Of a stretch of DNA of 59,433 nucleotides, positions 21,291-48,913 are shown one piece after another (within the stretch, counting starts at the first letter, position 1; every line of letters begins with the position of its first letter). The position numbers were made by a program, and so were the translations under genes. The DNA comes from Flavobacteriales bacterium (GTDB taxonomy: Bacteria > Bacteroidota > Bacteroidia > Flavobacteriales_D > CAJJDF01): positions 28,564 to 87,996 of the forward strand of contig JAHDBM010000005.1 in assembly GCA_020630395.1 (NCBI GenBank), read 5' to 3'. A model generated the notes under the pieces. It was not told where the DNA came from. It made no database searches and worked only from the letters and a program-made list of their open reading frames with translations.

Positions 21291-22169
21291 ATGGCGAAAT
21301 TTTTGATAACCATTTTAGTATTAAATTCATCAATTTTTGCTCAACATAACTTGTGCGGAATATGGGCTTTTGATGAAACAATATCAGGAAAATATACCAA
21401 AGCTTTTCTTATTGATAAGCAATGTGAATCTTTTTTTTCGGGTTATTTTTATGATGAAGATGAAAATAGAGATTATACGATATATTATTTTTCAGGTAGT
21501 ATTTATGAAAATAATCTTATAGGAACGGCTAGTATAGTAAATCATTATTTTGGTGTTAAGCAAAATAAAAGGATTACGATAAGAGCTAATCTTATGAATG
21601 ATTCTGTAATGCAATATCCTAGGTATGAATATAGTCTTCCTCCGTATAGGGATAGTGAAACTGATATTTCCTTTTTTAAAATCAAAAGAATAAATAAAGA
21701 TGAGATTAACTACAGAAGGGTTATTCACGCACTCTCAAGATATCGAATAGATAAAAAGAATTGTAGTTGTGATACTGTAAGAGATAGCTTAGTTGAAAAA
21801 CAATTAACATTAGATAGTAATATTGTAAATAGGGAAAATAAAGTGATCCAAACAATTATTTACAAAGGAGATCATGTTTTGGTAAAACTTAAGGATAATA
21901 ATCAAATAGATGGGGATATAGTAAGTGTGTATTTGGATCAAAAATTGATAAAATCTAATATTAAACTAAAAAGAAGAAATAAAAAAATCAAAATATCATT
22001 ACCTACAAATAGGAAAGATCATACGTTACTTTTTGTTGCTGAAAACATAGGTGAAGTTCCACCAAATACAGCAGATATTGAAATGATTTTTAATGAAAAA
22101 AGAGTTAGTCTTCGCCTCAATTGTGACATGAAAACAAATAGTAGTATTATACTTAAACAAGAAGAATAA
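21291..22169 (+). CDS. Secreted protein of unknown function, first of a tandem paralogous pair
   Basis: 292 residues beginning with a short signal peptide (cleavage after SSIFA). The mature start HNLCGIW is shared with the next gene. The N-terminal half is beta-rich and may be lipocalin-like; this is a guess. The C-terminal ~100 residues form a distinct module. It begins with VLVKLKDNNQIDGDIVSVYL, has a VPPNTADIEM signature, and ends in a conserved SLRLNCDMKTNSSIIL strand. The same module is in the next gene, so the pair arose by duplication. It starts 4 bp after kynU and lies 1 bp before its paralogue, so co-transcription is likely. No function is assigned. Confidence 0.8.
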   Translation: MAKFLITILVLNSSIFAQHNLCGIWAFDETISGKYTKAFLIDKQCESFFSGYFYDEDENRDYTIYYFSGSIYENNLIGTASIVNHYFGVKQNKRITIRANLMNDSVMQYPRYEYSLPPYRDSETDISFFKIKRINKDEINYRRVIHALSRYRIDKKNCSCDTVRDSLVEKQLTLDSNIVNRENKVIQTIIYKGDHVLVKLKDNNQIDGDIVSVYLDQKLIKSNIKLKRRNKKIKISLPTNRKDHTLLFVAENIGEVPPNTADIEMIFNEKRVSLRLNCDMKTNSSIILKQEE

Positions 22170-22170
22170 A

Positions 22171-23052
22171 ATGAAGGCATTAGCTCTTTTAATAGCTCAG
22201 TTTTCAGTTGTTTGTTTAGTATCTTATGCTCAGCATAATTTATGCGGGATATGGGTAAATGGGAATAGTTATAATAAAGAATATGATGATGTACTTATTT
22301 TGAATGAGGTATGTGGAGATAATGTTGTAGGCTATTCTTACGATCAAGATGAAAGGGGAGGCTTTTGTAATTATAGGTTTGTTGGAAAAATAAAGCACAA
22401 AAGAAAAAAAGATATTTTAAAAGGCAAGTGTACGTTTTCCTATGAAAAGAAAAACGGGCATGTTGCAACTAGTTTAAAGCTTAATGTGTCGAATAAAAAA
22501 GCCACTACTATATCTGGTAAAAAATGGATAACCAGTCTTGGGATTTTATCCACTAAAAACGTCACCTATAGAAAAATTTCACTTAGTGAGTTTAATAAAA
22601 ATACAAGTTATAATAGGTTAAGATATTATCTTAATAAGTTAGATAGATGTGAGTGTGTAAAGAAAAAAGATTCAGTCGAAAGTACACAGAGTTCTGATAA
22701 AAAAAGATTGACAGAACGAAAGAATAAGCGTTTAAACACGTTTAAAATTAAATACTCTGAGCTTACCTTAAAACTAAGAGATGCTAATAAAGCTGATGGC
22801 GATAAAATAAGCATTTATCTAAATGGAGAATTAATCGTATCAAACTTTGAGGTTACAAAAAGAGCCAAGAAGCTTTCAGTGGTTTTGCCACCAGGCAAAA
22901 AGGAACATAGTTTAGTGTTTGTTGCTGATGATTTAGGGAGAACACCCCCTAATACTGCAGATATTGAAATTTCAAATTACAAGGATGTTTATCGCGTATC
23001 TTTAAACTGCGATCTCAAAACGAATAATGAAATTATTATTCAAAAGCCATAA
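22171..23052 (+). CDS. Secreted protein of unknown function, second of a tandem paralogous pair
   Basis: 293 residues with a signal peptide (ends LVSYA) and the same mature N-terminus HNLCGIW as its neighbour. Mid-region similarity is weak. The C-terminal module is well conserved: LRDANKADGDKISIYLNGEL, PPNTADIEI, and a final LNCDLKTNNEIIIQ. The central linker (about 160-195) is Lys/Ser-rich. The N-terminal half has diverged faster, which suggests different ligands and a shared C-terminal scaffold. Function unknown. Confidence 0.8.
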   Translation: MKALALLIAQFSVVCLVSYAQHNLCGIWVNGNSYNKEYDDVLILNEVCGDNVVGYSYDQDERGGFCNYRFVGKIKHKRKKDILKGKCTFSYEKKNGHVATSLKLNVSNKKATTISGKKWITSLGILSTKNVTYRKISLSEFNKNTSYNRLRYYLNKLDRCECVKKKDSVESTQSSDKKRLTERKNKRLNTFKIKYSELTLKLRDANKADGDKISIYLNGELIVSNFEVTKRAKKLSVVLPPGKKEHSLVFVADDLGRTPPNTADIEISNYKDVYRVSLNCDLKTNNEIIIQKP

Positions 23053-31127: not shown

Positions 31128-32576
31128 TTATTGTAGTCTTATGTTCTTCAAAAATTTCTTACCAGAGATAGCTTTTTTAGTGATGGTAACTTCATCTTTA
31201 AAAATTTTCACACTTTTCATATCTACTTTACCAGTATACATTTCTTCATTTGAAGTTGGAACAAATACTTTTCCGTAAACGGTTATGGTTACTTTATCAT
31301 CAGTTGTTTTAACAAGTTCCCAGTTTCCATCAATAATTTCATAACAATATGCTCCACAATGGTCGTCTTTATAATAAACAAATGTACCATTAGAACGAAT
31401 ATTTAAACTAGTTTCGCTCCATGAATCTCCGTACTCGATACTGTTATTAAATCCTTTATCCAAAAACCACAATTTATCATTTGCTTTGTTCGCTTTCACT
31501 ATGTTTTCAATAGCATCTGTTTCTATTTTAATAGGGTAACCATTACTGTAAAGAATCATTTCACTAATCCCCAAATCTTGGTATGAATTGCCTTCGTATG
31601 CTTCCTTTATTGTTAAGTCAATTTTATTCGTAATGGTTGGTTTTGATAAAGTAGTAAGTTGAGGTTTTTCAGAATTATCAAGTGTTAAACTATCTTCTAA
31701 TTCCTCACTTTTTATGGTAAAAGATTTTAGTTTAGCATTTGCATAAAAATGAGATGGTGATCTTTGGTAGCCGTTCCATATTTTAAGAGCGTCTATAGAT
31801 AGTATTTCTTCAGTTTCTAATGATAAAGTTGATCCAATACCATTATCTTCAACTCCTTCAATCCATGCATAACCTGTCATATTATCGAATAAATTATCTC
31901 CTGCATAAGAAGGGGATTCTTTTAGTACTGATGGTGTATTGATATTACCTTTTACTCTTTTAGGTAATACAATGTTCATTGCTTTACCTTTTGTGTCAAA
32001 AAAATCGATTGTAGATAATGAAAGGTAGCTCGAAGGGTTTGTTTTACTAATAGTTTGAATTTCTTCTTCTCCAAGTTTAAATTCTTGCTGAATGTTGTCT
32101 TTTCCTCTAAACTTAATAAAGAGATTTTTAACAGTTTTATTAATGTTTTGAGATCGTTTGGTTGTTCCATATTGTTGATCTACGAGCGTTCCATTTACAT
32201 AATAGTAATAGGTCTGTTCTTCATTAGCTGTAAGTTTAAAAGAACCAATTTTAGTTGGTTTTGAAAATGAAATTAATATTCCTTCAGCATCTGTTGCTCC
32301 CTTAGGTGATTTCCAAAAGGTGGTAGAATCATTATCGAAACAATTGTATAGATGGTTTTCATGAAATGGAAGGGCTGTTGAGGTTGCATAAATATTATCT
32401 ACTAAAACTGGGTTTTCGGGTAAAATTAATGCTAGAGGTTTTTTTTCTTCAGTAACAAGAGAGTCTGTAATGTTATCATTAACTACTTTATTTTCGGTAT
32501 TTACTTCAGTTTCTTCTCCACAAGAAATAGTAAATAGAACACTGCTTATTATTAGTATATAAAGCTGTTTTGTCAT
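31128..32576 (-). CDS. Lipoprotein with discoidin/NADase-type glycan-binding-like domains
   Basis: 482 residues from the ATG at 32576. An upstream in-frame ATG at 32690 would bury the lipobox, so the shorter start is chosen. The lipobox is TISC (about 19). Residues about 50-180 (NHLYNCFDNDSTTFWKSP; GILISFSKPTKIGSFKLTANEE) look like an F5/8 type C or NADase-type glycan-binding domain. A second similar region follows (DNLFDNMTGYAWIEG; ALKIWNGYQRSP). The last ~100 residues are beta-rich. It probably binds cell-envelope carbohydrates. A divergent gene (VanW-like) begins 87 bp away. Confidence 0.8.
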   Translation of the reverse strand: MTKQLYILIISSVLFTISCGEETEVNTENKVVNDNITDSLVTEEKKPLALILPENPVLVDNIYATSTALPFHENHLYNCFDNDSTTFWKSPKGATDAEGILISFSKPTKIGSFKLTANEEQTYYYYVNGTLVDQQYGTTKRSQNINKTVKNLFIKFRGKDNIQQEFKLGEEEIQTISKTNPSSYLSLSTIDFFDTKGKAMNIVLPKRVKGNINTPSVLKESPSYAGDNLFDNMTGYAWIEGVEDNGIGSTLSLETEEILSIDALKIWNGYQRSPSHFYANAKLKSFTIKSEELEDSLTLDNSEKPQLTTLSKPTITNKIDLTIKEAYEGNSYQDLGISEMILYSNGYPIKIETDAIENIVKANKANDKLWFLDKGFNNSIEYGDSWSETSLNIRSNGTFVYYKDDHCGAYCYEIIDGNWELVKTTDDKVTITVYGKVFVPTSNEEMYTGKVDMKSVKIFKDEVTITKKAISGKKFLKNIRLQ

Positions 32577-32596
32577 TTTTTTCGATTGATTTCGGT

Positions 32597-32604
32597 CAAA
32601 AATA
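32597..32604 (-). promoter_or_regulatory. Possible -7 box of the lipoprotein gene
   Basis: The minus strand reads TATTTTTG at 32604-32597, fitting TAnnTTTG, 20 bases before the ATG at 32576. No -33 TTG lies at standard spacing. Confidence 0.35.
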
Positions 32605-32662
32605 CAATTTTTTAGTTGTACATTGGTTATCATCAAAGGGTTATATCGTTCGCTTATATTGT

Positions 32663-33481
32663 ATGCAAAACCAACCAGTAGAAAAACCAAAAAAAAGAAG
32701 TTTACTCAGAAAAAAACTGGGGAAAGAATATTTTATTTTTAAAAGAAGAATAAAATGGATGTTTGGTAAAACTAAATGGGCAAAAACGTTTAATAAAACC
32801 CAATTAAAACATAATGTTTTTCAACATAAATCCTTTTTACTTCGTCCTTTGAAGAATGTTGATATGTACTTGCAGCATAATAAAGTAGAAAATCTTAGGA
32901 TTGCTATTAGTAAGATAAATGGTGTGGTGATAAAACCAGGAGAGACCTTCTCATTATGGTTGTTAGTTGGCAGACCTACTAAACTAAAAGGGTATAAAGA
33001 GGGAATGACATTGAGTAATGGTCAAGTTGAAAAAGGAATAGGAGGAGGGCTCTGTCAATTAGGAAATTTATTGTTTTGGATGACGATTCATTCCCCTTTA
33101 AAAATAAAAGAAAGATGGAGGCATAGCTATGATGTTTTTCCAGATGTTAATAGAAAGGTCCCTTTTGGAAGTGGAGCAACTCTATCGTATAACTATATTG
33201 ATTTGCAAGTAGAGAATATTGGACATACTGATTTTCAATTTAATTTATGGTTAGATGATACACATTTAAATGGATTATTATCCACCAGTAAGCCTTTAAT
33301 GAAAACATATAAAGTGTATGAAGAGGATCATCATTTTCAACAACAGTATTGGGGAGGTTACACTAGGCATAACAAAATAATGCGAGATGTAATTGAGCAA
33401 AATGGAGAAGTGAAAAAAGAGCTTGTTACCGAGAATCATGCAGTATTGATGTATACACCATTTTTAGATCAAAATAAGTAA
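32663..33481 (+). CDS. VanW-family protein
   Basis: 272 residues from the ATG at 32663. A start at 32570 would overlap the divergent lipoprotein gene and lacks family resemblance, so it is rejected. The VanW core is visible: INGVVIKPGETFSLW near residue 92, GMTLSNGQVEKGIGGGLCQL near 130, and SYDVFPDVNRKVPFGSGATL near 170. VanW proteins occur in some vancomycin-resistance clusters and widely elsewhere; the biochemical function is not established. Here it overlaps the next gene by one base. Confidence 0.88.
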   Translation: MQNQPVEKPKKRSLLRKKLGKEYFIFKRRIKWMFGKTKWAKTFNKTQLKHNVFQHKSFLLRPLKNVDMYLQHNKVENLRIAISKINGVVIKPGETFSLWLLVGRPTKLKGYKEGMTLSNGQVEKGIGGGLCQLGNLLFWMTIHSPLKIKERWRHSYDVFPDVNRKVPFGSGATLSYNYIDLQVENIGHTDFQFNLWLDDTHLNGLLSTSKPLMKTYKVYEEDHHFQQQYWGGYTRHNKIMRDVIEQNGEVKKELVTENHAVLMYTPFLDQNK

Positions 33482-33944: not shown

Positions 33945-35726
33945 TTAATCATATAGTAGATATCCTTTACTCTTTTTAGATATCATAAATTGTAAACCAA
34001 TTTCATGTTGTAAAGAACTAAAGCCAATATCTTGGATTAAATTTGTATATCCTGTTGCATGGTAAGCAATTCTAAAACCTTTATATTCTCCTCCAAGTAC
34101 AAGATGTAAATCTTTTTCGGTAGAAGCTCCAACACCTGCAATAATACCTTTTAGTCTTCCAGTTACAGCTAGTGTATATCGTTTATTAGCTTCAAATAAA
34201 TTATCTACGTAAAATTGAGGACTAATTAGGATGTCTTTTTGAAATGATTTTCTATAATCAGTACCAACAACTAAAGTAGTAGACGGGCTTCCAATTGCAT
34301 CTTCTTTATATTTAGTATTTCCTCCAAGATTAAATTGGTTGTTGGTTTGAATACCTGCATATAATGATGAAGTTTCAATTAATATACCTAAGTCTAATGT
34401 GCTGTGCTCTGTTGAGTAGGGTGTGTTTCTATCAGCTAAACTATTCGAAGATAAATTTGTGTTCTTAGCATAAGAGAATGTTGCAGATGGAATAACATTT
34501 ACTACTTCTAGATCTAACTTTTGCGAATAAGTAAAGGAAGTATTAATTAAGCTATTGTTTTCAGTTCTGCTCCAAAAAGATGTTAAACCTAAACCAGAGT
34601 TTTTAATTCTAGTATCAAAACTTAGTCCACCACTTATTCCATCAATACTTAACTTTTCTCCATTTAATTGTACTCTTGAAGTGTTGTAGCTGCCCGTTAG
34701 AGATTTATTAGATGAAACTGTCATTAAGTTGTCTTTTAGCATTAAACGATTTGGAAAAACAGTTAAAGCTAAATCTCTATTTATAAATTTAGCTAAACTC
34801 TTAGCCCAAGAATTATTTCGTTTTGCTTTGTCTTTTTCAGTCGTTTCTTTTTTATTGTTATCAGTAGATGTTTTTGAAATAGGATTAATTGGTTGGTATT
34901 CTCTACCATTTTTTTCAATACCATTAATTGAAGTAGCTCGATCAATATATTTACTTAAAAACACATACATTTTGGCAGTAGTTCTTCTGTAATCTTTATT
35001 ATTTATATCGGCTTTTTTGATGTCATTAATACCATTCAAAAAGGTATTGTTGTTATTATTAGTATATCCAGCTGGTGTTATATTTGATGTATTGTTAGCA
35101 GTATGGTTATTTAAGCTAGTATTAGTATTAACTATTTGAGAGTAATTATTACTTAAGTTGTTTTGAGAGCTATTGCTAACTGTTATGTTACTGTAGTTAG
35201 ACTGATTATTGTCTTCTACAAAGTATGCTTTCTTAGAGTAATTTCTGTTTTTAGCAATATCATTGTTAAGTATTTCTTCTTTAGCATTAAATTGCTTTGT
35301 ATTAGCTGAAGCTTGACTTAAGTTAGATGATTGCTTATTATAATTTATTCTTTGGTTTTGATTGTTATATAATTCGTATGAAATTGAATTAAAATTACTA
35401 GCTGTTGAAGACGAGATATCAGTGTTAGTTTGATCAAAAGAGTTACTAAAAAATAGAGCAGTCCCAGTTCCTAAAAGTAATGCTAAAGAAAAGAAAAGAA
35501 TAAAGCCTTTATTATCCCAAATGCTTTTTTTAATTAATGAATCAGTATACTCATAAACTAAGTTATTGTCAGGGGCGAATGATTCGTTCCAAGAATTAAA
35601 ATCACTTTGAAAGCTGGGGTTTTCTTTGATAAAATTTTCGAATTCTAGTTTTTCATGAAGAGAAAGATTCCCTTCGAAATAGTCGAATAACCATTTATCA
35701 ATATTGTTCGTGTTAATTATTTTCAT
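33945..35726 (-). CDS. Anti-sigma/PorP-SprF-like beta-barrel fusion, predicted to span both membranes
   Basis: 593 residues. Residues 1-70 resemble the short Bacteroidota anti-sigma N-terminus (YFEGNLSLHEKLEFENFI; WNESF). One hydrophobic helix follows (about 74-93), then a linker (about 100-310). The stretch 101-240 is about 27% Asn with much Ser/Thr, probably disordered. Residues about 315-593 look like an outer-membrane barrel: alternating beta-strands, LGGEYKGFRIAYHATGY, then LQHEIGLQFMI as in PorP/SprF C-termini. This order matches the dual membrane-spanning anti-sigma factors (Dma) reported in gut Bacteroides, as I recall them. The ECF sigma gene lies 15 bp upstream, supporting an anti-sigma role. 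Barrel assignment is by eye. Confidence 0.75.
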   Translation of the reverse strand: MKIINTNNIDKWLFDYFEGNLSLHEKLEFENFIKENPSFQSDFNSWNESFAPDNNLVYEYTDSLIKKSIWDNKGFILFFSLALLLGTGTALFFSNSFDQTNTDISSSTASNFNSISYELYNNQNQRINYNKQSSNLSQASANTKQFNAKEEILNNDIAKNRNYSKKAYFVEDNNQSNYSNITVSNSSQNNLSNNYSQIVNTNTSLNNHTANNTSNITPAGYTNNNNNTFLNGINDIKKADINNKDYRRTTAKMYVFLSKYIDRATSINGIEKNGREYQPINPISKTSTDNNKKETTEKDKAKRNNSWAKSLAKFINRDLALTVFPNRLMLKDNLMTVSSNKSLTGSYNTSRVQLNGEKLSIDGISGGLSFDTRIKNSGLGLTSFWSRTENNSLINTSFTYSQKLDLEVVNVIPSATFSYAKNTNLSSNSLADRNTPYSTEHSTLDLGILIETSSLYAGIQTNNQFNLGGNTKYKEDAIGSPSTTLVVGTDYRKSFQKDILISPQFYVDNLFEANKRYTLAVTGRLKGIIAGVGASTEKDLHLVLGGEYKGFRIAYHATGYTNLIQDIGFSSLQHEIGLQFMISKKSKGYLLYD

Positions 35727-35741
35727 TCTAATTCTTCGTAA

Positions 35742-36233
35742 TTATGCTACCAAATGTTTGTTCTTTTTTAGTTGTTCTTTTAACCTTTTTCGAGCTCGAA
35801 ATAGATATACTTTTACCTGTGATTCACTAAGGCTAAGAATGTTTCCGATTTCCTTATAATCGTAGCCTTCATAATCGCGCAGCATAATGATTGATTGTTG
35901 TTGAGGTGATAAGAACGCCATTAATTTGTCGATCAAATCTCTATTTTCAAAACGAGTGCTATCTTCATTTTTCATAGAAATCTCTGGGATTTCTTCTCGA
36001 ACATCCATTCGGTTTTCTCGTTTAATGGTGTTTAACATTAAGCGGTAACCAGTTGTGAATAACCATTGCTTTGCTTTTTCATTGTCAACAGATTTTCTGT
36101 TAATCCAAAGCTTTTCAAAGGTATCCTGAACCAAATCATTAGCCATTTCCTTATTCTTACAATTTTTCACAAAAAATGCGAATAATCGATTCGAAAAGGT
36201 TTGAGCGGCAATATTGTATTCTTTTCTGTTCAA
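35742..36233 (-). CDS. ECF-type RNA polymerase sigma factor
   Basis: 163 residues. Sigma region 2 is at about 10-75 (EMANDLVQDTFEKLWINR, AKQWLFTTGYRLMLNTIKRE). Region 4 is at about 105-155, with LSPQQQSIIMLRDYEGYDYKEIGNILSLSESQVKVYLFRARKRL read in two parts around the helix-turn-helix. It is followed 15 bp later by the membrane-spanning anti-sigma-like gene, the usual ECF/anti-sigma order. No target promoter was identified. It is divergent from the phosphatase gene, with a 212-bp spacer that holds no clear promoter box. Confidence 0.94.
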   Translation of the reverse strand: MNRKEYNIAAQTFSNRLFAFFVKNCKNKEMANDLVQDTFEKLWINRKSVDNEKAKQWLFTTGYRLMLNTIKRENRMDVREEIPEISMKNEDSTRFENRDLIDKLMAFLSPQQQSIIMLRDYEGYDYKEIGNILSLSESQVKVYLFRARKRLKEQLKKNKHLVA

Positions 36234-36445
36234 TGGTTAATAATTACTATTTTCTCTTTTTCTGGTACTAAAACAATTTCACTAGCATAAAAGTTACAAA
36301 AAATTGATTTTTATTTTTCTAATAACTAATAAGAATATGTTTTAATTTAAGCTAAGAGCATAATTCACTATCATATAATTACGTAAATTAGTATGTTAAG
36401 TTGTATTAAATGTAGTATTTAACATTTATCAATTAATTGATTTTT

Positions 36446-41724: not shown

Positions 41725-42675
41725 ATGGTAAAAAGTCTTGTTATTGGTGCGAATGGGCAAATTGGTACAGATTTAGTTGAAGGTTTAGTCGATATATATG
41801 GTATTGAAAATGTAGTTGCTTCTGATATTCGAGAGAGTAAATTACCAGTAGATATAGCTTTTGAACAAATAGATGTATTGGATACTGATGCATTAAAAAA
41901 AGCAATAGTCGCTCATGATATAGATGAAGTCTATTTATTAGCGGCATTGTTATCGGCTACTGGAGAGAAAAAACCACTTTTTGCTTGGGAACTCAATATG
42001 CAGGGGTTATTAAATATATTAGAACTTGCCAAAGAAGGAGTTATAAAGAAAATATTTTGGCCAAGTTCTATTGCTGTATTCGGACCAACTACTCCTAGAG
42101 AACATACGCCTCAAGTTACCATAATGGAGCCATCTACAGTTTATGGCATAAGTAAGTTAGCAGGTGAAAGATGGTGTGAATATTACCACAATAAATATGG
42201 TGTAGATGTGAGAAGTATTCGTTATCCAGGTTTAATAAGTTATAAAGCAGAGCCAGGAGGTGGAACTACTGATTATGCAGTAGATATTTTTCATAAGGCT
42301 ATTAAAGAAGGTAAATACACCTGTTACTTAAAAGAAGATACTTATTTACCAATGATGTATATGGATGATGCAATACATGCTACAATATCATTAATGCAAT
42401 CTCCAAGTAGTTCTATAAAAGTCAGATCTAGCTATAATGTATCAGGGATTAGTTTTTCTCCAGCAGAAATTGCTGCCGAAGTAGCTAAATTGGTACCAGA
42501 TTTTATTATAGACTACGAGATTGATTTTAGACAATCAATTGCAGACTCATGGCCTAAAAGTATTGATGATGATATAGCTAAAGATCAATGGGGATGGAGT
42601 AATAAAACAGATCTAGCAACAATGTCTAAGAAGATGATTGAAGGATTAAGAGAATTGAAACAAGAACACCATTAA
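41725..42675 (+). CDS. Short-chain (epimerase-type) L-threonine 3-dehydrogenase
   Basis: 316 residues of the extended SDR family. NAD-binding GANGQIG is at 8-14, the catalytic pair Tyr140/Lys144 in YGISK, and Ser in WPSSIAVFG near 114. PGLISYKAEPGGGTTDYAV is characteristic of the epimerase-type threonine dehydrogenases of Bacteroidota, which oxidise L-threonine to 2-amino-3-ketobutyrate. It differs from the zinc-dependent Tdh. Its stop shares the TTAA palindrome with the stop of the convergent porP gene. Another SDR sugar enzyme is possible but less likely. Confidence 0.85.
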   Translation: MVKSLVIGANGQIGTDLVEGLVDIYGIENVVASDIRESKLPVDIAFEQIDVLDTDALKKAIVAHDIDEVYLLAALLSATGEKKPLFAWELNMQGLLNILELAKEGVIKKIFWPSSIAVFGPTTPREHTPQVTIMEPSTVYGISKLAGERWCEYYHNKYGVDVRSIRYPGLISYKAEPGGGTTDYAVDIFHKAIKEGKYTCYLKEDTYLPMMYMDDAIHATISLMQSPSSSIKVRSSYNVSGISFSPAEIAAEVAKLVPDFIIDYEIDFRQSIADSWPKSIDDDIAKDQWGWSNKTDLATMSKKMIEGLRELKQEHH

Positions 42676-43724
42676 AATGTTCTTCTCCTAATTGTTCTAA
42701 CGCTTCTTGTGTTATAACCAAAATTACCTAACCAAGCTAAAGAGATTTCCATACCTCCTCTAGAGGCACTAGCTGGCGTTAATAAAGAGAAGTTAATATC
42801 ATAACTAAATCCAACCTTAAGCATTGATCTATACTCGTATGCAACATTAGCTATTAAAGCATCCCTGTATCTATAAAAGCCACCAATGTATAAATAAGAT
42901 TGAGAATTGTATCCAGTATAAAGAGATTTCATTCCTAGACTAGTTTTTACATTCAATCCACCCACATATTCTGTACTAGCTGATTGTAAAGCTACATAAG
43001 CAGAAGGAATGATTGATGTTCCAGGAGCCTGTCCTACGGGAATTTCTGTTCTCCCATGAGCTATTATTTTCATTCTTAGAACATCAGTATTAACATCAGA
43101 TAGTGTTCCTTGCCATGGTCTATTAAGGTGAGAAGCGCTTATTCCTACTTGAGATTCGTTTAAGTTCTGGTCAAAAAATCGAGCAAGGAACCCCGCAGAA
43201 ATATCAAAGTAATTAGATTTAGGAAAATATAGCCCTTCACCTGTTGCTAAAGATGGATCATATTCTACACCATTGTATTGGTTATCCCACCTTAGTCCAT
43301 TAAGATTAGCAGCAACTTGACCATAACCAAAAGATAAACCTATAGATAACTCTTGAAATTTACTAACGGCTACAGCTTGTGATACATTTAAATTAATTTG
43401 AGTAAATCCATATTCACTTTTACCAGCTTTGTCTCTTAAAAAAGAAATACCTAAACCAGTCATTTTATATCCATTATAGTTTCTTAAAGCAGGCATATCA
43501 AAAGAGGCAGCCATTGTTTTGAATGGTGTTGCAACACTACTCCATTGAGTTTTGTAATTCATGTTGGCACGATAGTCGCCTTGATATGAACCCGCAGCAG
43601 CAGGATTTATTAATAAAGGAGCTTGATTAAATTGCGAAAAGTGCCAATCTTGAGAATAGGTGTGATTATTGAAAATTAAAATTCCAATTACTATAATAAC
43701 AATATGTTTAGTTAACCTAATCAT
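42672..43724 (-). CDS. PorP/SprF-family type IX secretion membrane protein
   Basis: 350 residues with a signal peptide (ends NHTYSQ). The opening of the mature protein, DWHFSQFNQAPLLINPAAAG, is the hallmark of PorP/SprF. Strands follow (LGISFLRDKAGKSEYGFTQI) and the barrel ends near MEISLAWLGNFG. These outer-membrane proteins pair with individual type B T9SS cargo, helping anchor or deliver it. It overlaps the upstream 1730-residue cargo gene by 4 bp, as in sprB-sprF pairs. It is the last gene of the operon. Confidence 0.95.
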   Translation of the reverse strand: MIRLTKHIVIIVIGILIFNNHTYSQDWHFSQFNQAPLLINPAAAGSYQGDYRANMNYKTQWSSVATPFKTMAASFDMPALRNYNGYKMTGLGISFLRDKAGKSEYGFTQINLNVSQAVAVSKFQELSIGLSFGYGQVAANLNGLRWDNQYNGVEYDPSLATGEGLYFPKSNYFDISAGFLARFFDQNLNESQVGISASHLNRPWQGTLSDVNTDVLRMKIIAHGRTEIPVGQAPGTSIIPSAYVALQSASTEYVGGLNVKTSLGMKSLYTGYNSQSYLYIGGFYRYRDALIANVAYEYRSMLKVGFSYDINFSLLTPASASRGGMEISLAWLGNFGYNTRSVRTIRRRTF

Positions 43725-46700
43725 CTTACTAATGTTACATCTCCTTTTAATTCATAAATCTCTCCACTTTCTAAAAGTGCTTTTACATAATAAACATAAA
43801 CACCTGCATTAGCTTCTTTTCCATTGTAATTACCGTCCCACCCTAAGCTCATATCTCTCGATTGGAAAAGTTGATTACCCCATCTATCAAAAACGAAGAA
43901 TTCAAGTTTATCAATTTGCTGACCTCTAACAAAAAGAACATCATTAGCACCATCTCTATTTGGAGAAAATACGTCTGGAACAAAAACCGGTTCTTCTAGT
44001 ACACATATAGTATCTGTTGCTGTATCATAACATGGTCCAGCATTTTTAATAATAAGTGATATTTCATAAATACCACCATTTTCATAAGTATAGTTAACAT
44101 CTACACCAGGAGCATAAGAAAAGCTAGCTTCACCTAAATCCCAGGTGCCTGTTAAACCACCAAATGATTGGTCTATTAAATCTACGGTAGGATCAGTAAA
44201 AGGTAAACAAATACCGTCTGGCAAATCAGGAATTGTAGCGAAATCAGCAAAAATTTGACCATAACTAGGTATTTCAAGTGATGTATCTATTGAACAACCA
44301 GCACCATTAATTACTCTAACCTTAACAGAATCTTCAGCAAAAGCATAAACAGTATCACCTGTTGTGGCGGGTTGTAGCCAAACATAAGTATAACCAGCTT
44401 GAGTTAAGTCATAAGTAACATAACCTAAATCTCCAAAACAAACAGTTGGTCCTGTAGTGAGGGTAGGGATGACTTTAGGAAATACTTCAATAAAATAGCT
44501 TGCAGTTTTTGGATCAGAGCATCCATCATTTAGCGTAACTGTATAGATTTGAGATGCAGCTGGTGTTTCAGTTTGAACAGGATTAGTACTTGCAGTATGA
44601 GTCCATGTGTACGTGTAACCAGGGCTAGGATTACCTCCACTTCCGGTAGCAGTTAAAGTTGTGCTTTCACCTGGACAAATCTTATCAAGTGTAGCATTAA
44701 GTCCAAGATCTAAAGAATCTCTAATGTGTACATAATGTGTATCTGTAGTTAAGCATTGTCCTACACCAAACTTATATATAAGTTGTTGATCAGTAAGGTT
44801 ACCTGCAATAATTGGATTAATTGTACCTGCAGTTTGGTCATATATCCCAGTTCCTCCCCATGTGCCTCCTGGTGGTACAGCAGTAATTAAAGAATCGTAA
44901 TTAAAGTAGCATAGCGTATCTGGAAAATTAATACTGGCTTGAATAAAAGGATAGACTGTTATTATAATGCTATCTGTACATAAGAATGCTGGATTTAAAT
45001 AATGTATAACATTTGCACCAATGTTTGCAACAGATGGATCAAATAATCCGGTTGTACTATTTGTTATTCCGGGTCCAACCCAACTGGCTCCAACTATGTT
45101 ATTAATTGGGTCTAATTGAAACGGTAAATGTGTATTACAAACTGTAGAGTCATTATAATTTAGTGTATCGGGATAAACTACCATTACGATTGAATCGCTA
45201 CAAGTGTTTTTCTCATATATTAGTGTATGAGCACCTATACCCGCTAAATCTGGGTGGAAATAATAGTCTGGTGGGGTATGCACAACACCATTACCAGTCC
45301 ATACTCCTCCAGCAGGTGTTATAGGATTAGAGGCACTACCAATTAATTGAATTGGTAATTCATTTAAACAAAATGAAATGGTATCTACCTGTATATCCGT
45401 TTGAATAATATCAATTAATAGGGTGTCAGAACAACCATAAAAAGTATATAAAACTGTGTCAGTTTGTCCATTACCTACTAATGAAGGATCATATAGGCCA
45501 GTATTAGGATTAATAATTCCTAATCCACTCCAAATTCCACCAGCAGGAGAAGGAGCAGGTAAGTTAAAAGGAGTTTGAGAGGGACAAGCAACAGTATCGG
45601 GTCCTGCATTAATATCTACAACATATATAGTTACACTATCTCTACAGTCAATATAATCATAATATACAGTGTTATTCCCAGTATTTGCTATAGAAGGATC
45701 AAATGTTCCTAATGATGGATTTATTATACCTAATCCACTCCATGTTCCGCCATTAGGTGTAATTGGAATGTTGAATGGACTATCATATCTACAAACTGTG
45801 TCAAATGAGTAAGTAGTGGCAATTGTATCAACAAATATTTCAGTAGAATCTACGCAGCCATTAACTGTATAGTATAACATAAAGGCACCATGACTAATAG
45901 GAGTAAATACACCTGCTGGTGTTACATTAGGACCAGTCCATGTTCCTCCACTAGGAGAAAATCCAGTTAAATTATAGGGATTGCCACTATTACACAAAGT
46001 ATCAGGAGGACCAGCTTCAGGGTTTGTAATTAGAATATAGACAGAGTCTCTACAGCCTAGTAGATCGTAAGTAATCTTATGATTACCGGTTCCGGCAACT
46101 GAAGGGTTAAATGTTCCTAAATTTACGTCAGTAATACCAGTTCCGCCCCATATTCCACCTGGTGTTGCAGCATTAAAGTTAAAAGGAGCATCATAGATAC
46201 AGGCATTATTTATAGGAGTTATTCTCGTATTAATGTATTTAATTCGGATGGTATCACGATAAACCTGTCCTGTAAATAATTCATTGAGTACTACGGTAAA
46301 TACTGTGTCTGATGTTGGACAAATATTATGTGGTCCTGCTATTCCTGGAAGACCATTTGACCATGTAAAGGCAACTGGATAGCAACTATTTGTCGTTCCA
46401 TTAAGTTGAGTACACGAATTGTAACATACTGTATCATCATAAGTGAAATTGGCAACCAAAGGACAGCTATGAATAATAATAGGAGTCGATATTGTATTGC
46501 TACAAAAATCAGAATTAATAGTGAAATTTAATGTGTAATCACAGTTTCCAGGAAAAGGATTTGCAATTATAACTGTAGCTGTAGTTGTGCTATCATTTGG
46601 TCCAGAGCAACCAGTAGGAAAAGCATTTATTACTAATGGTGGTGAGCCACCGCCTAGTAAATTAAAAGCAGCTGTGTAAATGGAATCACACAGTATTTTA

Positions 46701-48913
46701 CGATTAAATTCTACATGAATATTAATAGAGTCACATTCAGGTATTCCTTTGGCGCTATCAAGTTGCATTGAATAGGATACTAGAGATGTGTCAACATACA
46801 TTGTAACAGTATCATAAGCAACAACTCCAGTGGTGTCTTCTGTGATAATTACAGTAAAAGTTGTATCTCCGTTAGGGCATATAATATGAGGTCCTGGATC
46901 ATCTGGGAGTCCATTGCTCCAATTGTAATGTAATCCAAAACAAGTACTAACAGGTGTAATAGTAACATTTCCACATGTTCCTCCACATATAGTATCGGGA
47001 TAAGTAAGTGTATAGTTAATTTCACAATCAGCAACTCTAAATGTATCTGTAAAAGACAAATTAAATAAATTCCCACAGGGATCTGTTGTGTCTATATCAA
47101 ACGTTATTTCGTAATCACAATTATACTGGAAGTTATTACTTAAGTATACTATTGCAGAAGTAGTATTGCCTCCTACACAATTTGTTGGAACAACAGAAGT
47201 GATTGTTGGCACTTGAATTCCTCCAATTAAATTGAATTGTGATACCTGTAATGCTCCACAATTAACATTTGGGAAAAAATCAAGAATAATTGAGTCTGCA
47301 GCACAATCTGGAGCAGATGCATTAATGTTTTGGTCTAATATTATTCCTTGAGGGAATGCCCTTATTCTAACAGTGTCAGTTCTAGTTAAACCAGTAGAAT
47401 CTTCAATTATATCAACCCAAAAAACGGTATCACCAGTTGGACATATTGAATGAGGACCAGCTGTAGCAGGGAGACCATTACTCCATGTATAAGAATAGGT
47501 ACTACACCCATTTTCAACTACAGTAACATTGTCACAGTTACCAATACATATTGTATCGGGATAATTAGTGGTAACAGATAAATCACAAGTAGTTAAACTA
47601 AAGGTGTCAGTTATGGTGAAGTTTGTCGGGCCATTACATGGATCTACATAGTTTAAAACAAAATCTAAATAATATTCACAATTAGACACCAAAGGAGATG
47701 CTAAATCTATTCGAACAGAGTCTATTAGGTTATTGGTACAATTTAATGAAGTATGATTAATAATAACAGGAGGAGTATTAGCGCTTCTCAAAACAAAAGA
47801 ACCAGAGTCAATTAAATAACAAAGTAATTGAGGGTTGAAAATTACATCAAAATTTGTCGAGTCACATTCCGGTGGATTACTGCTGCTTATTTGCATTCCT
47901 AGATTAGCATCTAATGTGTCGATTACGGTTACTGTTATTGAATCTTGAAATTGAATACCAGTACCAGTTTCAGTTACCCCAATATAATAAGTTGTAGTAG
48001 TTGTTGGACACACGCTATGAGGGCCTTGTGTAAATGTTCCATTAGACCAAAAAATATTATAGGTTCTACAGCCAGGTAGTATGTTGATTCCTATATTAGC
48101 GCATTGACCTAAACATATTGTTGTATCGGGTAGTATGGTGTGTTGTATATCACAGGTAGTAAAATCAAAAGTATCTGATACTATAAAATCATATACACTA
48201 TCACATACATCAGGTATTTTTAAATTAAAATCTAAAAAATACTCACAATTGTAAAGCAATGGTGTTGCTAATGTAATTCTAGCTGAGCGTGTACTATCAT
48301 TAACGCAACTCAGAGGTGTAACATTAGTTATGGCTGGAGCATTTGTTCCTGTTAAACTAAAGTTTGCTGTAATAATCGAATCACAATGAACTAATGTATC
48401 AAAATCTACAATAAAGGTAGTTGAGTCACAAGCCGGAGGTGATGATGTTGCACTTGTCATTTTAGGAGGGACAGGAGGCTCAGCAATTGTATTCCATATT
48501 GCTTCCCATCCATTTAAATCAACTGTACCATCAGAAATAAATCGAATGGTTAAGCATCCACTGTTTGCTATTACAGGTGGTGGAACAGGAGTAAAACTAC
48601 CTGCATACCCAACAATAAATGGAGAGCCTGTTGTTGGCCCATCATAAAACATGATACTATCACAACCCCCACATGCACCTTCTAGATTTAAAAAATTCCA
48701 AGTATAAATTATTTGAGCTCCGTTTCCAGGACATATACTAAAAATAAAATCTTCGTTTTTTCCATATTTACCACCAAATTGAGCATCACTATCCCTGTGT
48801 ACACCATCACAGTCATCAACAGTAGTATCTTTCATATTAAACACAGCTAGCTGTGAATATGAATTACTATAGCTAATAGCAAATAAGATAAATATGTATA
48901 CTAATTTATTCAT
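43721..48913 (-). CDS. Large T9SS surface protein with gliding-motility-type C-terminal (type B) sorting domain
   Basis: 1730 residues. A signal peptide (ends SNSYSQ) is followed by a CUB-like domain (about 30-145, with GACGGCDSIMFYDGPTTGSP). About four long related repeats follow (PECDS ... DTICIGNC ... SNGLPATAGPHSICP), then a series of shorter YDAPFN/GGTWSGLGI ... PSLAG-type repeats. A PKD-like domain lies at about 1560-1640 (NYTYENGGIYEISLII). The CHU_C type B sorting domain occupies the last ~85 residues (FSPNRDGANDVLFV; FDRWGNQLF; AGVYVYYVKA). It is likely displayed on the cell surface by the neighbouring PorP/SprF. Ligand unknown. It is the sixth gene of the operon. Confidence 0.93.
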   Translation of the reverse strand: MNKLVYIFILFAISYSNSYSQLAVFNMKDTTVDDCDGVHRDSDAQFGGKYGKNEDFIFSICPGNGAQIIYTWNFLNLEGACGGCDSIMFYDGPTTGSPFIVGYAGSFTPVPPPVIANSGCLTIRFISDGTVDLNGWEAIWNTIAEPPVPPKMTSATSSPPACDSTTFIVDFDTLVHCDSIITANFSLTGTNAPAITNVTPLSCVNDSTRSARITLATPLLYNCEYFLDFNLKIPDVCDSVYDFIVSDTFDFTTCDIQHTILPDTTICLGQCANIGINILPGCRTYNIFWSNGTFTQGPHSVCPTTTTTYYIGVTETGTGIQFQDSITVTVIDTLDANLGMQISSSNPPECDSTNFDVIFNPQLLCYLIDSGSFVLRSANTPPVIINHTSLNCTNNLIDSVRIDLASPLVSNCEYYLDFVLNYVDPCNGPTNFTITDTFSLTTCDLSVTTNYPDTICIGNCDNVTVVENGCSTYSYTWSNGLPATAGPHSICPTGDTVFWVDIIEDSTGLTRTDTVRIRAFPQGIILDQNINASAPDCAADSIILDFFPNVNCGALQVSQFNLIGGIQVPTITSVVPTNCVGGNTTSAIVYLSNNFQYNCDYEITFDIDTTDPCGNLFNLSFTDTFRVADCEINYTLTYPDTICGGTCGNVTITPVSTCFGLHYNWSNGLPDDPGPHIICPNGDTTFTVIITEDTTGVVAYDTVTMYVDTSLVSYSMQLDSAKGIPECDSINIHVEFNRKILCDSIYTAAFNLLGGGSPPLVINAFPTGCSGPNDSTTTATVIIANPFPGNCDYTLNFTINSDFCSNTISTPIIIHSCPLVANFTYDDTVCYNSCTQLNGTTNSCYPVAFTWSNGLPGIAGPHNICPTSDTVFTVVLNELFTGQVYRDTIRIKYINTRITPINNACIYDAPFNFNAATPGGIWGGTGITDVNLGTFNPSVAGTGNHKITYDLLGCRDSVYILITNPEAGPPDTLCNSGNPYNLTGFSPSGGTWTGPNVTPAGVFTPISHGAFMLYYTVNGCVDSTEIFVDTIATTYSFDTVCRYDSPFNIPITPNGGTWSGLGIINPSLGTFDPSIANTGNNTVYYDYIDCRDSVTIYVVDINAGPDTVACPSQTPFNLPAPSPAGGIWSGLGIINPNTGLYDPSLVGNGQTDTVLYTFYGCSDTLLIDIIQTDIQVDTISFCLNELPIQLIGSASNPITPAGGVWTGNGVVHTPPDYYFHPDLAGIGAHTLIYEKNTCSDSIVMVVYPDTLNYNDSTVCNTHLPFQLDPINNIVGASWVGPGITNSTTGLFDPSVANIGANVIHYLNPAFLCTDSIIITVYPFIQASINFPDTLCYFNYDSLITAVPPGGTWGGTGIYDQTAGTINPIIAGNLTDQQLIYKFGVGQCLTTDTHYVHIRDSLDLGLNATLDKICPGESTTLTATGSGGNPSPGYTYTWTHTASTNPVQTETPAASQIYTVTLNDGCSDPKTASYFIEVFPKVIPTLTTGPTVCFGDLGYVTYDLTQAGYTYVWLQPATTGDTVYAFAEDSVKVRVINGAGCSIDTSLEIPSYGQIFADFATIPDLPDGICLPFTDPTVDLIDQSFGGLTGTWDLGEASFSYAPGVDVNYTYENGGIYEISLIIKNAGPCYDTATDTICVLEEPVFVPDVFSPNRDGANDVLFVRGQQIDKLEFFVFDRWGNQLFQSRDMSLGWDGNYNGKEANAGVYVYYVKALLESGEIYELKGDVTLVR

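Follow-up and report, generated by a model that had tools for sequence, protein, structure and literature searches.

The window (the whole stretch of 59,433 nucleotides that was analysed) carries on its minus strand a gene for an ECF sigma factor and, 15 bp downstream of it, a gene for a 593-residue protein. A preliminary description had proposed this pair, and both Pfam and the translation bear it out. The features of the locus are as follows.

36269..36298, minus strand: ECF-type promoter motif TGTAACTTTT-N12-TTGTTTTA, 35 bp upstream of the start codon of the sigma gene, 0 mismatches
35742..36233, minus strand: ECF sigma factor gene, 163 aa, TTG start (Pfam Sigma70_r2, E 2e-8; r4_2, E 2e-15)
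33945..35726, minus strand: fusion gene for a dual membrane-spanning anti-sigma-like protein, 593 aa (translation, homologues, AlphaFold2 model)
35577..35726, minus strand: residues 1-50, putative three-helix anti-sigma domain of no named family, the most conserved part (model, alignment)
35445..35519, minus strand: residues 70-94, predicted single inner-membrane helix, N-in (model, positive-inside rule)
34812..35444, minus strand: residues 95-305, predicted disordered Asn/Ser/Thr-rich periplasmic linker, ~210 residues (pLDDT < 50)
33948..34784, minus strand: residues 315-593, PorP/SprF-like 14-strand outer-membrane barrel (TIGR03519, model, PorV/FadL fold, clade)

Regions 2 and 4 were both found in the sigma protein with Pfam, and its length agrees with the ~160-200 aa of ECF factors. 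Its top NCBIfam match was sigma_PG0214, at a score under the cut-off of that model. The fusion frame is evidently not a chance open frame: 26 of 100 genomes from the order carry homologues laid out in the same way, one of them truncated at the end of its contig, and at least five families are represented. When contigs were searched for the fusion, a single-sequence query found nothing and an alignment query found 33 loci. Distribution in the phylum was followed with a profile of the N-terminal domain, which in 392 genomes, nearly all from outside the order, found only shorter proteins (frames up to 428 residues); a full-length profile returned mostly stand-alone PorPs. Short homologues of 353-467 aa (L055, L057-L061), which have the anti-sigma domain but no barrel, were left out. 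Elsewhere in the window, 32570-33481 encodes a VanW-like protein in what is a Bacteroidota genome (NF033128, 181 bits, below the cut-off of 365), and 21291-23052 holds a neighbouring pair of genes, apparently paralogues (292 and 293 aa), neither of which has an NCBIfam match.

The fusion protein was modelled with AlphaFold2 from 25 aligned sequences. Its N-terminus forms three helices (residues 9-18, 23-35 and 37-49) in which N8, W12, F14, D15, E18, G19, N20, L21, F32 and W46 are near-invariant in the alignment. The N-terminus had been called anti-sigma-like; a conserved three-helix domain is in keeping with this, but profile scans of residues 1-93 gave no match to any named anti-sigma family. 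Two homologues matched the LIMLP_03685 anti-sigma family (best 0.0028). The membrane helix, previously placed at about 74-93, spans residues 70-94 in the model, and mean net charge in 48 homologues is +3.6 before it and -0.1 after it. A linker of about 200 Asn/Ser/Thr-rich residues had also been proposed, and the model is disordered from 95 to 305, with 48% Asn/Ser/Thr/Gln in this segment. The boundaries given earlier differ from those of the model by only a few residues. Among the 48 homologues examined, 127-245 residues separate the helix from the barrel domain. The C-terminus, described earlier as strand-rich, is a closed barrel in the predicted structure of the fusion alone, with 14 strands between residues 350 and 582 (mostly pLDDT near 90) and an early plug helix. 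The domain layout of the fusion is that of the Dma family, whose members likewise combine an anti-sigma N-terminus, one membrane helix, a long disordered tether and a C-terminal barrel next to an ECF sigma gene; this layout, and control of the sigma factor by Dma, have been reported (PMC13088901).

The barrel had been proposed to be PorP/SprF-like. A profile search of residues 315-593, as the preliminary description had suggested, matched TIGR03519 (E 1.4e-10, 41.1 bits) below its curated cut-off of 90.55, and a search across the whole genome gave E 3.3e-10 for the same barrel. PF11751 was not matched by the window barrel. The fused barrel of a congener clears that model (45 bits, cut-off 22.3), and among 22 homologues 13 match PF11751 (best 4e-34) and 12 match TIGR03519 (best 5e-39). 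The full-length protein gave nothing in default hmmscan runs against Pfam and NCBIfam families, probably because the low-complexity linker affects the filter, since the barrel alone recovers TIGR03519. Most anti-sigma factors are ordinary inner-membrane proteins with a soluble periplasmic domain, and the blank full-length scans would suit such a protein; the PorP/SprF profile matches, the closed 14-strand model and a PorV/FadL fold at Z 22-23 make it most improbable here.

The separate, normal PorP/SprF that had been noted at 42672-43724 is clearly one (PF11751, 2e-35; TIGR03519, 2e-44), and its model, at lower confidence, has the same 14-strand order with a short plug helix ahead. The nearest folds of both barrels are PorV and FadL, which tie for the fused barrel. 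Among solved structures, the model of the fused barrel comes closest to PorV of the T9SS translocon (8gl6_F; Z 23.1, rmsd 2.9 over 247 residues), and a second PorV entry, 6h3i_F, has Z 22.7. A search of the PDB by sequence found no PorP/SprF relative. Profile-profile comparison of the window barrel with true PorPs, made with few sequences, gave a moderate match (41% probability, E 2.8e-4). A tree of 76 barrels places the 28 fused ones, that of the window included, together in a single clade (SH-aLRT 99). Thus computation shows that the fused barrel is of PorP/SprF descent. Judged from its sequence, the window barrel is strongly diverged from that family; mean identity is 28% for the fused barrel and 63% for the partner PorP. 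PorP-like proteins are 14-strand FadL-type barrels which bind type-B cargo (PMC9143113). The fusion resembles the PorP/SprF family (TIGR03519, PF11751; PMC9143113) in this barrel, in its profile match and in having a true PorP as neighbour gene, but differs in that it has no signal peptide, carries an anti-sigma-like head, has its barrel at the end of an inner-membrane-anchored chain and belongs to a diverged clade of its own.

Related genomes were surveyed for T9SS genes beside sigma-fusion pairs, as had been suggested, and a conserved PorP gene was found. A stand-alone PorP/SprF (~320 residues) lies directly 3' of the fusion wherever the contig continues, with the window and its congener as sole exceptions. 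This holds for 21 loci of a first set and for 30 named Flavobacteriales/Crocinitomicaceae loci, the genomes of the two sets being partly shared. In most of these loci neighbouring genes share 1 or 4 bp or are separated by 2-17 bp. The gene set of sigma factor, anti-sigma::PorP fusion and stand-alone PorP is conserved within the order. In the window genome and the congener the adjacent third gene has been lost and an orthologue is kept elsewhere in the genome. Third-gene PorPs form one clade (98), with the window-genome PorP from contig 4 among them. A second close copy, merged in the tree as a near relative, is on contig 128, where it adjoins PorV, PorU and GldJ; GldM is on contig 4. The presence of PorV, PorU, GldJ and GldM shows that the window genome has a T9SS. 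Pairwise distances of sigma factor, anti-sigma domain, barrel and PorP are correlated (Spearman 0.61-0.85), but this was rejected as evidence of interaction because it reflects mostly shared descent.

Alternatively, the protein might be cleaved after export so that no signalling rod exists; the barrel would then serve as a normal PorP paralogue, and the anti-sigma stub would function by itself. In the model the barrel is indeed complete, with all 14 strands and an early plug helix of its own. However, the fusion is kept in at least five families, always with a linker of at least 127 residues, and the next gene already supplies a separate PorP, so that this explanation is improbable.

The promoter motif TGTAACTTTT-N12-TTGTTTTA, with its fixed 12-bp spacer, precedes the sigma gene in nearly all homologous operons from several families. 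Some loci were missed in the motif count where the sigma start had been set too far upstream, and the motif is visible there on inspection. At ≤ 1 mismatch the window genome has only four sites: that of the operon, one on contig 4 (26 bp before the relocated PorP orthologue), one on contig 38 (before a gene for a secreted barrel-type protein) and one on contig 16 (before a gene for a small lipoprotein). Twenty fusion-bearing relatives have 35 sites in total, against 2 for the reversed pattern. The motif is present in 18 of the 20 fusion genomes and in none of 20 genomes of the order that have no fusion. It is clear that the motif and the fusion are linked, since they are shared among these operons and occur together; the window's sigma factor presumably reads the motif.

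PorP/SprF is the first gene at 5 of 21 non-operon sites (binomial P about 2e-7, with 19 per ~3100 genes assumed as background), and at four sites the first or the second gene encodes type-B cargo domains. One such cargo protein has 1164 residues and SprB repeats; its gene follows the relocated PorP of the congener, which has a perfect motif. Related small Ig-like lipoproteins are encoded behind the motif at six sites in different genera. The link to T9SS that had been proposed is thus supported by the conserved downstream PorP and by a motif common to PorP/SprF and type-B cargo genes. Within the window, a motif search found no copy upstream of 42672-48913, where a PorP/SprF gene and a gene for a 1730-residue type-B cargo overlap by 4 bp; therefore only part of the T9SS surface modules would belong to the regulon.

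Among the genes at these sites, the small lipoproteins are of ~125 residues with a weak Ig-like match and are sometimes arrayed (L251:7930-8316, L259:1852-2819, L258:2271-2693, L263:1772-2969, L264:2262-3026). Genes for uracil-DNA glycosylase and a BamA-like outer-membrane protein stand together at the motif (L252:6158-8564, L257:1163-3453); the corresponding site has 2 mismatches in the window genome and 1 in the congener.

Motif sites also precede genes with no clear tie to T9SS, such as that for uracil-DNA glycosylase and those for other barrels. The system might instead be a general sensor of outer-membrane stress which reports BAM folding and insertion or periplasmic strain; the PorP identity of the barrel would then be historical and the sigma factor would drive envelope repair. 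Such a barrel-assembly sensor must be taken seriously as a rival, because the fused barrel has evolved rapidly, as if contacts with cargo were not kept (28% against 63% for the partner PorP), and because the motif set includes a BamA-like protein, along with lipoproteins and other barrels. In addition, Dma1 and Dma2 of B. thetaiotaomicron affect vesiculation (PMC13088901). Against it stand the strong over-representation of PorP/SprF genes at motif sites and the constant presence of the partner PorP in the operon, and we regard a general sensor as rather unlikely.

Two other ECF sigma loci have the same or a related promoter. On contig 103 of the window genome (L176:7095-9572) a paralogous ECF sigma gene is accompanied by genes for a 339-residue anti-sigma protein, which has two copies of the N-terminal domain and no barrel, and for a 275-residue secreted protein. 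The promoters there share TGTAACTTTT but carry TTCGTCTTA in the second position; two further sites of this form are on contigs 46 and 54. The SM6 motif of F. psychrophilum (CGT box; PMC9723704) was considered as a match and rejected, as it resembles this TTCGTCTTA variant and not TGTAACTTTT-N12-TTGTTTTA. On contig 1 of another genome, G010 (L272:7553-9554), a further ECF sigma gene under TGTAACTTTT-N12-TTGTTTTA is followed by a gene whose 473-residue product has PKD domains and a type-B T9SS C-terminal domain; this product may be an anti-sigma protein and at the same time T9SS cargo.

In the FecA-FecR and FpvA-FpvR systems the state of an outer-membrane barrel, a 22-strand TonB-dependent receptor, controls an ECF sigma factor via a separate inner-membrane anti-sigma protein. 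The order from barrel state to anti-sigma protein to ECF sigma factor would be alike here, but two proteins are needed there and one here. The genus of Dma1 and Dma2 is not known to have a T9SS. Those proteins have been linked to the formation of vesicles and to glycan loci, whereas the present system has a PorP/SprF-descended barrel, a stand-alone PorP/SprF as next gene and a linked motif before T9SS surface genes. In PorY-PorX-SigP of Porphyromonas gingivalis an ECF sigma factor also serves T9SS genes, and PorA, a cargo protein with a C-terminal domain, feeds into the signal (PMC4800418, PMC7712824). The sigma factor there is the target of a two-component system, whereas here one polypeptide would carry the signal from the outer membrane. 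A search of open papers for PorP/SprF together with anti-sigma factors, a set that lies apart from the founding Dma paper, found no report of such a combination. The layout was already known from Dma; what is new is that the barrel is of PorP/SprF type, that a PorP gene is fixed beside the fusion and that the motif set is rich in T9SS genes.

The locus probably encodes a sigma/anti-sigma pair of Dma architecture whose outer-membrane end is a PorP/SprF barrel and which would provide feedback on the supply of surface modules. The N-terminal three-helix domain would hold the sigma factor at the inner membrane until an event at the barrel releases it; we infer this because loss of the anti-sigma protein Dma1 or Dma2 frees the sigma factor (PMC13088901). 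The linker would span the periplasm, and the barrel would sit in the outer membrane, the place at which PorP/SprF barrels come together with the T9SS translocon and bind domains of type-B cargo. The trigger may be a changed state of the barrel, whether through docking of cargo, through loss of a partner or through faulty assembly. Relayed along the chain, probably by cleavage or by a pull on the linker, this change would free the sigma factor, which would then transcribe PorP/SprF barrels, surface lipoproteins and some type-B cargo as well as the operon that encodes it. Such a feedback loop would match the supply of surface modules to the state of the outer membrane.

A T9SS-linked surface sensor is the most economical reading because PorP/SprF proteins bind type-B cargo (PMC9143113) and the motif supplies both PorP barrels and cargo. 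More specifically, as a dedicated T9SS surface sensor, the fused barrel may itself dock type-B cargo or compete with the partner PorP for the translocon; docking would then be relayed across both membranes within one polypeptide and release a sigma factor by which PorP/SprF barrels and cargo are replenished. This version is a real possibility, at a little under even chances.

With the sensor, sigma factor, promoter motif and candidate targets all named, it becomes directly testable how Bacteroidota adjust their output of T9SS cargo and PorP/SprF barrels to the state of the outer membrane. If the proposed role is true, type IX secretion in Flavobacteriales would join the control of vesicles in gut Bacteroides as a process served by Dma-type signalling.
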